64,000 nucleotides of DNA, taken from Tunturiibacter gelidiferens (lineage in GTDB: Bacteria; Acidobacteriota; Terriglobia; Terriglobales; Acidobacteriaceae). Of the stretch, positions 25,138 to 27,228 are shown one piece after another (position 1 is the first letter of the stretch; each line of letters opens with the position of its first letter). The stretch is taken from NCBI RefSeq assembly GCF_013410115.1, contig NZ_JACCCV010000001.1, positions 124,001-188,000 of the forward strand, written 5' to 3'. The notes beneath the pieces are model-generated. The model searched no databases. It was given only the letters and a program-made list of their open reading frames with translations, and had not been told where the DNA came from. Both the position numbers and the translations under genes were made by a program.

Positions 25138-27228
25138 ATGCCGAAGGCCAAAATAGCCGAAAAAGCTCTCACCTATGGAGCAAAAGCAGGTTGGGCAGTA
25201 TTCAACAAGCTGAACTCATTCAGCCCCAACGCAAGCTTCACTCCAAAGTGGAGCGACAAGCCGCTTCTCAAGAGCTATCAGAAAGAGAAGCCACCCCTCG
25301 GCTGGCCTCGCACCACTGACTCCCTTTGCCCGAAGTGCATTCCGGAAATTCGTCAGCAGATTGTTGACGGCAAGCTGCCTCACGAGATCCTTCTCAACGA
25401 GAAGGTCGGCGAGATCAAGGCACAGATCATCGAGCGCAACGGCGAGATCCTGATGGTCAAGGACTGCCCGATCCACGGCCACTTTGAAGACCTGATGTCG
25501 ATCGATACCGCCTTCTTCAAGCACCTCGAAGAGGTCTTCCCTGGTCGCGACATCCGCGCCCACAATGACGAGAAGCTGCACAACCACGGCACCTCCACCG
25601 TCACCCACGGCCGCGGCTCGGTTCTCACCATTGACCTCACCAATCGCTGCAACATGATGTGCGATCCCTGCTTCATGGACGCCAACCAGGTCGGCTTCGT
25701 CCACGAACTGACGTGGGACGAGATCAAGACCATGCTCGACAACGCGGTCACCATCAAGCCTCGTCGTCAGATGTCGGTCCAGTTCTCCGGCGGTGAGCCC
25801 ACGCTCTCCCCGTACTTCCTCGACGCCGTCTCCTACGCCCGCAAGGTTGGTTACACCTCAGTTCAGGCCGCGACCAACGGCATCGAGTTCGCCAAGTCGA
25901 AGGAGTTCGCGAAGGCCGCTGCTGAAGCCGGTCTGCGCTACGCTTACCTCCAGTTCGATGGCATCGGCAACGCAGCCAACTCGCACCGCAAGGTCGGCAA
26001 CGCATTCGACGTAAAGCTCCAGGCCATTCACAATCTGCACGAGGCTGGCGTCGATATCGTTCCCGTCACCACCATCGTCAATGGCATCAACAACGAGCAA
26101 GTTGGCCGCATCATCGAGTTCGCGCTCGACAACCCGAAGAAGATCAACTTCCTCTCCTTCCAGCCCGTCAGCTTTACCGGCCGTGACGAAGACATCTCGG
26201 ACGAGCGTCGTCAGGCCCAACGCTACACCCTCTCGCACCTCGCGCACGATGTGAAGAACCAGACCGGCCTCGGCGAACCGACCCGCGACTGGTTCCCCAT
26301 CTCCTTCATGTCCACCTTCTCCGACTGGGCCGACCTCGTCCACGGGCCGGACCGCGACTGGGGCCAACTGTCCTGCGGCTGCCATCCGAACTGCGGTATC
26401 TCGATGGCCCTGATGATCGACAAGGAGACCAAGGAAGCAGTTCCCGTAACAGCGTTCATCAATGCAGACCGCCTTGCGAAGGATGTCGCCCGCATCAACG
26501 ACGCCGCCCGCGGCAAATGGCTCTCTATCATCGGCGTCACGCTCGCGCTTCTCCGCAACTACAAGCCCGAAGCTGCACCGACCCACTTCAAGATCAAGGA
26601 CCTGCTGCAGAAGTTCGACAAGAGCTTCGGCGCAACCGGTCGCAGCTACGGCAAAGTCACTGCAGACCGCACCATGGCCGACATCGAGAAGCGCCGCGGC
26701 GATCGTTGGAACTTCCTCTTCATCGCCGGCATGTGGTTCCAGGATCTCTTCAACTATGACTTCCGCCGCACCGAGCAGTGCATCATCCCCTACGCCACGC
26801 AAGAGGGTGAGATCAGCTTCTGCGCTTACAACACCGGGGTGGGCTGGCGCAATATCATCGAGAAGATGCACATGACCTCCACCCTCACCAAGTGGTACGA
26901 GGAGCATGGCCGCCACGAGATCTTCGCCGGCGGTAAGAAAGTCGGTCTCGAAGCCGAGATGAAGTACGACCTGATCCTCAACGACGAGCACGTCAACGCC
27001 GCCGCCAACGACACCTTCGACAAGTCCGGCATCGCGAAGAACTCTCGCGAAGAAAAGATCCGCGCACGTGATGCGAAGATCAAGCAGGACGCCGAAAACG
27101 CCCGCATGGCTAAGCTCTACCGCAAAGAAATCCTCCAGGAGCCCGATGCCCCTGCCGGATTCATCTCCATCGGCGAGATCAAGGCCGCGCCGGCACCGAA
27201 GGTCGAAGAGACCGTCTCCGGCGACTAG
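25138..27228 (+). CDS. Tes/MJ0619-like radical SAM enzyme, candidate membrane-spanning lipid synthase
   Basis: The 696-residue protein has the radical SAM cluster motif CNMMCDPC (C171, C175, C178; CX3CX2C) and the GGE motif at 218-220. Before it is a cysteine/histidine set (C64, C67, C110, H113 in SLCPKC and KDCPIHGHF) and after it further cysteines (C413, C415, C419, C548, C562), the layout of tetraether synthase (Tes)-type enzymes with several metal centres. Archaeal Tes couples two lipid tails by C-C bond formation; bacterial homologs have been linked to membrane-spanning diabolic and iso-diabolic acids, which Acidobacteriota make. No substrate can be proved from sequence. It is a single gene with a good ribosome site and a terminator. 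Confidence 0.85.
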   Translation: MPKAKIAEKALTYGAKAGWAVFNKLNSFSPNASFTPKWSDKPLLKSYQKEKPPLGWPRTTDSLCPKCIPEIRQQIVDGKLPHEILLNEKVGEIKAQIIERNGEILMVKDCPIHGHFEDLMSIDTAFFKHLEEVFPGRDIRAHNDEKLHNHGTSTVTHGRGSVLTIDLTNRCNMMCDPCFMDANQVGFVHELTWDEIKTMLDNAVTIKPRRQMSVQFSGGEPTLSPYFLDAVSYARKVGYTSVQAATNGIEFAKSKEFAKAAAEAGLRYAYLQFDGIGNAANSHRKVGNAFDVKLQAIHNLHEAGVDIVPVTTIVNGINNEQVGRIIEFALDNPKKINFLSFQPVSFTGRDEDISDERRQAQRYTLSHLAHDVKNQTGLGEPTRDWFPISFMSTFSDWADLVHGPDRDWGQLSCGCHPNCGISMALMIDKETKEAVPVTAFINADRLAKDVARINDAARGKWLSIIGVTLALLRNYKPEAAPTHFKIKDLLQKFDKSFGATGRSYGKVTADRTMADIEKRRGDRWNFLFIAGMWFQDLFNYDFRRTEQCIIPYATQEGEISFCAYNTGVGWRNIIEKMHMTSTLTKWYEEHGRHEIFAGGKKVGLEAEMKYDLILNDEHVNAAANDTFDKSGIAKNSREEKIRARDAKIKQDAENARMAKLYRKEILQEPDAPAGFISIGEIKAAPAPKVEETVSGD

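Follow-up and report, generated by a model that had tools for sequence, protein, structure and literature searches.

Results

A solitary Tes-like radical SAM gene

The window analyzed here is a 64,000-nucleotide stretch of the genome of Tunturiibacter gelidiferens. It holds an intact gene for a protein resembling the tetraether synthase Tes, which is preceded by two genes on the same strand and followed by two on the other.

23014-23871 and about 23858-24835, + strand: paralogous upstream proteins with no Pfam family and 27% mutual identity
25138-27228, + strand: Tes-like radical SAM protein gene, intact ORF of 696 amino acids
27269-27288, + strand: terminator-like hairpin directly 3′ of the Tes-like gene, found by consensus scan only
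27317-27820, − strand: gene for an Abi_C-domain protein, downstream of the Tes-like gene
28156-28593, − strand: gene for a PIN-domain-like toxin, downstream of the Tes-like gene, judged by eye

Inspection of the sequence revealed a Shine-Dalgarno-like AGGAGA shortly 5′ of the ATG of the Tes-like gene. The original prediction had described this gene as standing alone with no adjoining ether-lipid genes, and this description holds, in that the gene has its own terminator-like hairpin and no recognized lipid gene next door. The position of the hairpin suggests a single-gene transcript. In addition, a domain search of the whole host genome found no HGD-D (PlsA/Ger-type) domain, which, together with the lack of ether-lipid genes nearby, fits a host with mainly ester-bound iso-diabolic acid. 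Elsewhere in the window, a pair of TldD/PmbA-like metallopeptidase genes occupies positions 17643-21193 on the + strand.

We rejected an operon or guilt-by-association assignment for the gene. In 118 loci carrying it or a counterpart, the only recurrent close neighbor on the same strand is an uncharacterized Terriglobales protein, which keeps the position directly upstream in 30 of them, and therefore the neighborhood provides no pathway link. At one locus that is probably from Chloracidobacterium (7021-9237 of L171), the counterpart lies just upstream, on the same strand, of nuo-like (NADH dehydrogenase) genes, a designation that rests on the starts of the proteins only.

Profile searches and a structure model place the protein in the Tes/GDGT-MAS family

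The Tes-like protein matches the Pfam families Radical_SAM (E 3e-19) and Zn_ribbon_HMPTM (E 2e-12), and its top NCBIfam match is the tetraether synthase Tes (NF045702; 322 bits, E 5e-96). This score falls short of the 450-bit equivalog cut-off. Weaker NCBIfam matches to NirJ, AhbC, and MoaA are confined to the radical SAM core. Among PDB sequences, the best match is GDGT-MAS (7tol, E 1e-59). The closest named relative of the protein, with 99% identity, comes from Edaphobacter lichenicola, a match that assigns the host to Edaphobacter, and the counterpart in E. aggregans is 91% identical.

An AlphaFold2 model built with 53 family sequences attained high confidence (pLDDT 90.8, pTM 0.90), and GDGT-MAS again ranked first among known structures (Foldseek E 1e-36; VIA-align Z 43.2 to 7tom). 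The superposition with 7tom gives an rmsd of 2.3 Å over 477 residues and spans the whole crystal chain, residues 1-498. By comparison, MoaA, which represents the next family (Z 20), and viperin match only the core of the model, with Z scores of 18-20. The match to GDGT-MAS begins at residue 56 of the Tes-like protein, and the tail after about residue 593 has no counterpart. A long helix within the preceding extension was assigned by DSSP analysis of the model.

25138-25308, + strand: N-terminal extension (residues 1-57) with an amphipathic helix at residues 3-27

The helix has a hydrophobic moment of about 0.4, from which we infer possible contact with the membrane.

Thus, profile, three-dimensional model, and phylogenetic tree (see below) agree, and membership of the protein in the Tes/GDGT-MAS fold family is well supported. 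These data also bear on the reading that the protein is a radical SAM enzyme acting outside membrane lipids, in cofactor or peptide maturation, and is Tes-like by fold alone. Substrate shifts come readily in radical SAM families, and the weaker matches noted above would be in keeping with such a shift. However, those matches cover the core only, whereas the match to Tes covers the whole chain with a Z score of 43 rather than 20, and the C-terminal domain that holds the coupling cluster is conserved. We consider this reading improbable.

Ligands of three metal sites are retained and the cysteines of the N-terminal cluster are lost

GDGT-MAS has a rubredoxin-type site (C9/C12/C33/H36), an N-terminal cluster ([Fe4S4]N) with ligands C73/C77/C80 and a histidine, a radical SAM cluster, and a C-terminal cluster ([Fe4S4]C) with a labile Met439; its Tyr459 is conserved, yet not essential (PMC9433317). 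To compare the equivalent positions, we aligned 136 window-like proteins with 20 canonical Tes homologues.

25327-25476, + strand: rubredoxin-type site C64, C67, C110, and H113 (PF23545), kept in 136 of 136 window-like proteins and in the aligned Tes relatives
25573-25596, + strand: place of the lost [Fe4S4]N, where K146, H150, and S153 align with C73, C77, and C80 of GDGT-MAS
25648-25671, + strand: radical SAM cluster C171-X3-C175-X2-C178, identified by sequence and PF04055 and invariant in the clade
26374-26394, + strand: CxCHPxC motif, in which C413 and C415 are extra and C419 is a [Fe4S4]C ligand by alignment
26731-26823, + strand: [Fe4S4]C region with M532, C548, Y552, and C562, invariant in 136 of 136 window-like proteins and 20 of 20 canonical homologues

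The radical SAM CX3CX2C cluster named in the original prediction is present. The same prediction listed extra cysteine sets typical of tetraether synthase-like enzymes, and two of the three extra sites were indeed found. One is the rubredoxin-type site, in which C67 and C110 are separated by 42 residues, compared with 20 in GDGT-MAS. The other is the C-terminal site formed by C419, C548, and C562 with Met532. These three cysteines were assigned as [Fe4S4]C ligands because they are the sole further cysteines invariant in both groups of sequences. By alignment to GDGT-MAS, M532 and Y552 are the equivalents of the labile Met439 and of Tyr459, respectively, and all five residues occur in every window-like protein (136 of 136). 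The additional cysteines C413 and C415 vary little or not at all among the window-like proteins, and C413 recurs in four of the canonical rows.

The third site does not stand: the second CX3CX2C motif is absent from the protein and from the whole clade. Position 150 is histidine in all 136 window-like proteins and position 153 is serine in 135 of them; the C73 equivalent (position 146) is cysteine in a single sequence, and the equivalents of C77 and C80 are cysteine in none. In contrast, all three cysteines are kept in 20 of 20 canonical homologues. The [Fe4S4]N cluster therefore appears to be absent from the window-like clade. Judged by its sequence, with a score below the equivalog cut-off and these cysteines missing, the Tes-like protein is not a canonical Tes.

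The window-like proteins form one clade within the Tes family

The 136 window-like sequences form a single clade (bootstrap/SH-aLRT 100/100) on a long stem branch of 1.9 changes per site. This clade is nested inside the Tes family, beside canonical homologues of two other acidobacterial families (100/99), and the tree thus supports placement in the Tes family. The grouping with differently acting radical SAM enzymes that the original prediction named as counting against it was not observed. The only archaeal row in the tree is the Methanocaldococcus (M.) jannaschii GDGT-MAS, represented by residues 35-511 of the PDB chain as taken from a printed alignment. Because canonical homologues with the full set of clusters, the M. 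jannaschii enzyme included, surround the stem, loss of the N-terminal cluster on this branch is the simplest reading. Canonical homologues keep four metal sites, and the clade lacking the N-terminal cluster can be recognized by CPxC, by CxCHPxCG, and by the absence of a second CX3CX2C.

Across genera, the window-like proteins share 74-92% identity. Their conservation, together with their universality in the host's family (see below), indicates strong purifying selection. It is thus very improbable that the gene is a diverging paralogue on its way to losing function, even though one cluster is gone and paralogues in other genomes are truncated or lack C-cluster cysteines, because the metal ligands are invariant in 136 sequences.

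The Tes-like gene is the only intact Tes-family enzyme found in the host genome. The other close family member there (G000:C2:2125167-2126333; 8111-9412 of L126, − strand) is missing the rubredoxin domain along with most of the C-cluster ligands. A protein on a Persicobacter megaplasmid is related to this short second relative. Likewise, in the E. aggregans genome the window-like gene is the only intact Tes relative, and no homologue exceeds the Tes cut-off. The degraded paralogues mentioned above are extra window-like copies (41-44% identity): in E. aggregans the reading frame is cut short close to the end of a contig (1997-3202 of L178), and an Acidicapsa dinghuensis copy has lost the C-cluster cysteines (1739-3655 of L179). 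In one acidobacterial family (f20), genomes often have a pair of window-like paralogues (L124/L125, L176/L177), the second of which shares only about 50-55% identity with the window protein and possibly acts on a different substrate.

Distribution matches the reported iso-diabolic acid producers at the group level

A relative at E ≤ 1e-60 was found in 160 of 297 acidobacterial genomes. Classified by score, about 140 of the 297 hold the window-like type and 19 the canonical type alone. Canonical homologues above the cut-off (for example, L116 and 7821-9632 of L121) occur in 31 of the 297. Within the host's family, the window-like gene is present in 34 of 34 genomes and a canonical homologue above the cut-off in 3 of 34; none of the latter was found in 12 further genomes, among them that of E. 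aggregans.

The two types lie near each other in three family genomes. In one (7821-12001 of L121), they are in direct tandem on the same strand, with the canonical gene (7821-9632) about 210 nucleotides downstream. In the other two (L122 and L123), the canonical gene is 3-6 kb from the window-like gene, and BNR-repeat proteins rather than lipid genes are encoded between them.

Edaphobacter belongs to Acidobacteriota subdivision 1. Window-like genes were also found in subdivision 6 (Luteitalea pratensis), in subdivision 4 (a probable Chloracidobacterium), and, through named Bryobacterales loci, in subdivision 3. Among seven subdivisions surveyed, iso-diabolic acid has been reported from 1, 3, 4, and 6 (PMC13274423). 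Edaphobacter strains contain 12-30% iso-diabolic acid, mostly ester-bound (PMC11354219), the compound has been reported from Chloracidobacterium (PMC12816986), and E. aggregans makes both iso-diabolic acid and brGDGT-Ia (PMC13274423, PMC10087280). The distribution of the clade thus matches the subdivisions reported as producers, a correspondence at the level of groups.

Several apparent occurrences outside the phylum were set aside. Plasmid matches from outside Acidobacteriota are distant (24-29% identity), and no window-like proteins were found in viral contigs. Two metagenome-assembled contigs titled Rhodanobacteraceae (L016 and L022) carry the gene among acidobacterial neighbors, and their public titles look wrong; the genomes of the phylum around one of these contigs resemble the acidobacterial set.

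Discussion

A candidate synthase of iso-diabolic acid

On the basis of the fold, the catalytic residues, the clade, and the distribution, the product of the Tes-like gene is probably the host's synthase for iso-diabolic acid, a membrane-spanning lipid, and represents a form of the Tes family particular to Acidobacteriota. The original prediction of a membrane-spanning lipid synthase is upheld as a family placement and as a candidacy, the latter strengthened in that this is the only intact Tes-family enzyme in the host and E. aggregans genomes and that its distribution fits the reported producers; it is revised in that the protein is no canonical Tes and that ester-bound iso-diabolic acid is a likelier product in this host than an ether lipid. 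The statement that homologues of this family had been proposed as the synthase is borne out by the publication on the E. aggregans counterpart (PMC8941075). E. aggregans, which produces both lipids and has one intact family member, is the strongest case.

As to substrate and reaction, we infer that the predicted enzyme most likely joins a pair of iso-C15 tails on ester phospholipids, yielding iso-diabolic acid. S-adenosylmethionine bound at the C171/C175/C178 cluster would be cleaved to yield a 5′-deoxyadenosyl radical, which would take a hydrogen atom near the end of the iso-C15 acyl tail of a first phospholipid. The C-terminal cluster (C419/C548/C562 and the labile Met532) may then hold the resulting carbon radical in a C-S adduct until a second radical, formed from the facing lipid, attacks the adduct and creates the C-C bond. 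The predicted product, 13,16-dimethyl octacosanedioic acid, would remain esterified to two glycerols.

A broader proposal is that this acidobacterial clade with three metal sites, having lost the N-terminal [Fe4S4] on a single ancestral branch, carries out sp3-sp3 C-C coupling of fatty-acid tails and is the main source of acidobacterial iso-diabolic acid. We judge the chances for and against it to be evenly balanced.

Several observations weigh against assignment as the synthase. Loss of [Fe4S4]N together with the long stem branch (1.9) could signify a changed reaction or substrate. The correlation between window-like genes and iso-diabolic acid is at the subdivision level and largely follows phylogeny, and the gene is not beside lipid genes. 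Moreover, Solibacter usitatus was reported to have two Tes homologues and no detectable iso-diabolic acid (PMC10087280), which implies that having a homologue does not strictly go together with having the product.

The protein might be a lipid-modifying Tes relative that mainly performs another radical step, such as coupling of ether tails into brGDGT, chain cross-linking in the manner of GMGT synthase, or C-methylation; a separate enzyme would then produce iso-diabolic acid. The stem branch and the cofactor loss are compatible with this reading, as is the proximity of window-like and canonical genes in three genomes, which indicates that the two types can operate together and may differ in task; furthermore, the Tes fold family was formerly annotated as methyltransferases (PMC9433317). 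Nevertheless, the C-cluster, methionine, and tyrosine of the coupling site are invariant, the host genome lacks the PlsA/Ger-type domain for ether substrates, Edaphobacter iso-diabolic acid is mostly ester-bound, and no other intact Tes-family coupling candidate was found in the host genome. We therefore regard this alternative as unlikely, though it is the most serious of those considered. The synthase may also belong to another protein family.

If the Tes-like gene does encode the synthase, several consequences follow. Palaeothermometers for soils and lakes are built on iso-diabolic acid and brGDGTs, and judged from sequence, the gene described here is the best candidate for the one that makes the abundant membrane-spanning lipids of Acidobacteriota. 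The host's family is rich in iso-diabolic acid, yet most of its genomes lack canonical Tes, so surveys relying on canonical Tes alone would miss likely producers. The clade would also constitute a natural experiment on which cofactors are needed for a rare sp3-sp3 coupling, and its missing cluster raises the question of the role of the N-terminal cluster in GDGT-MAS.

Comparison with known systems

The TrsS radical SAM (seleno)protein (NF045646) is related in sequence, and the Tes-like protein scores 208 bits against its profile, far below the 490-bit cut-off. The bacterial membrane-spanning lipid synthase Mss (Sahonero-Canavesi et al. 2022; described in PMC13274423 and PMC11868695) is alike in its type of predicted product, iso-diabolic acid, and a 2026 paper attributes to it a Tes-like catalytic architecture. 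The similarity criterion for Mss in PMC13274423 was E ≤ 1e-30 with >30% identity. In a Thermotoga maritima control, the Tes profile gave no match at E 1e-30, whereas it matches the window-like clade at about 1e-95. By this comparison with the Tes profile, the Thermotoga enzyme is probably more distant from Tes than the gene described here.

Canonical bacterial Tes proteins above the cut-off belong to the same family as a sister lineage (100/99), possess all four metal sites (20 of 20), and are patchy in occurrence. Koribacter and Solibacter reportedly have such proteins, which share 40-42% identity with archaeal Tes, and Halamka et al. pointed to the two Solibacter homologues (PMC10087280).

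Archaeal Tes/GDGT-MAS (MJ0619; 7tol/7tom; NF045702) shares with the Tes-like protein the whole-chain fold, the rubredoxin-type site, the radical SAM cluster, the C-terminal cluster ligands, and the equivalents of the labile methionine and of Tyr459. The two differ in that identity is 28-31% and that the Tes-like protein lacks the [Fe4S4]N cysteines, has a 42-residue rubredoxin loop, and carries an N-terminal helix and a C-terminal tail of about 100 amino acids; the host lipids, moreover, are built from fatty acids and not from isoprenoids.

Within the literature surveyed, the definition of the clade, the loss of its cluster, and its contrast to the canonical enzymes are apparently new. The available passages of Zeng et al. 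2022 propose the E. aggregans Tes homologue for brGDGT synthesis and make no mention of a missing N-terminal cluster (PMC8941075). That homologue is almost certainly the same gene as the one described here, at 91% identity, and differs from the window protein by species-level divergence only.
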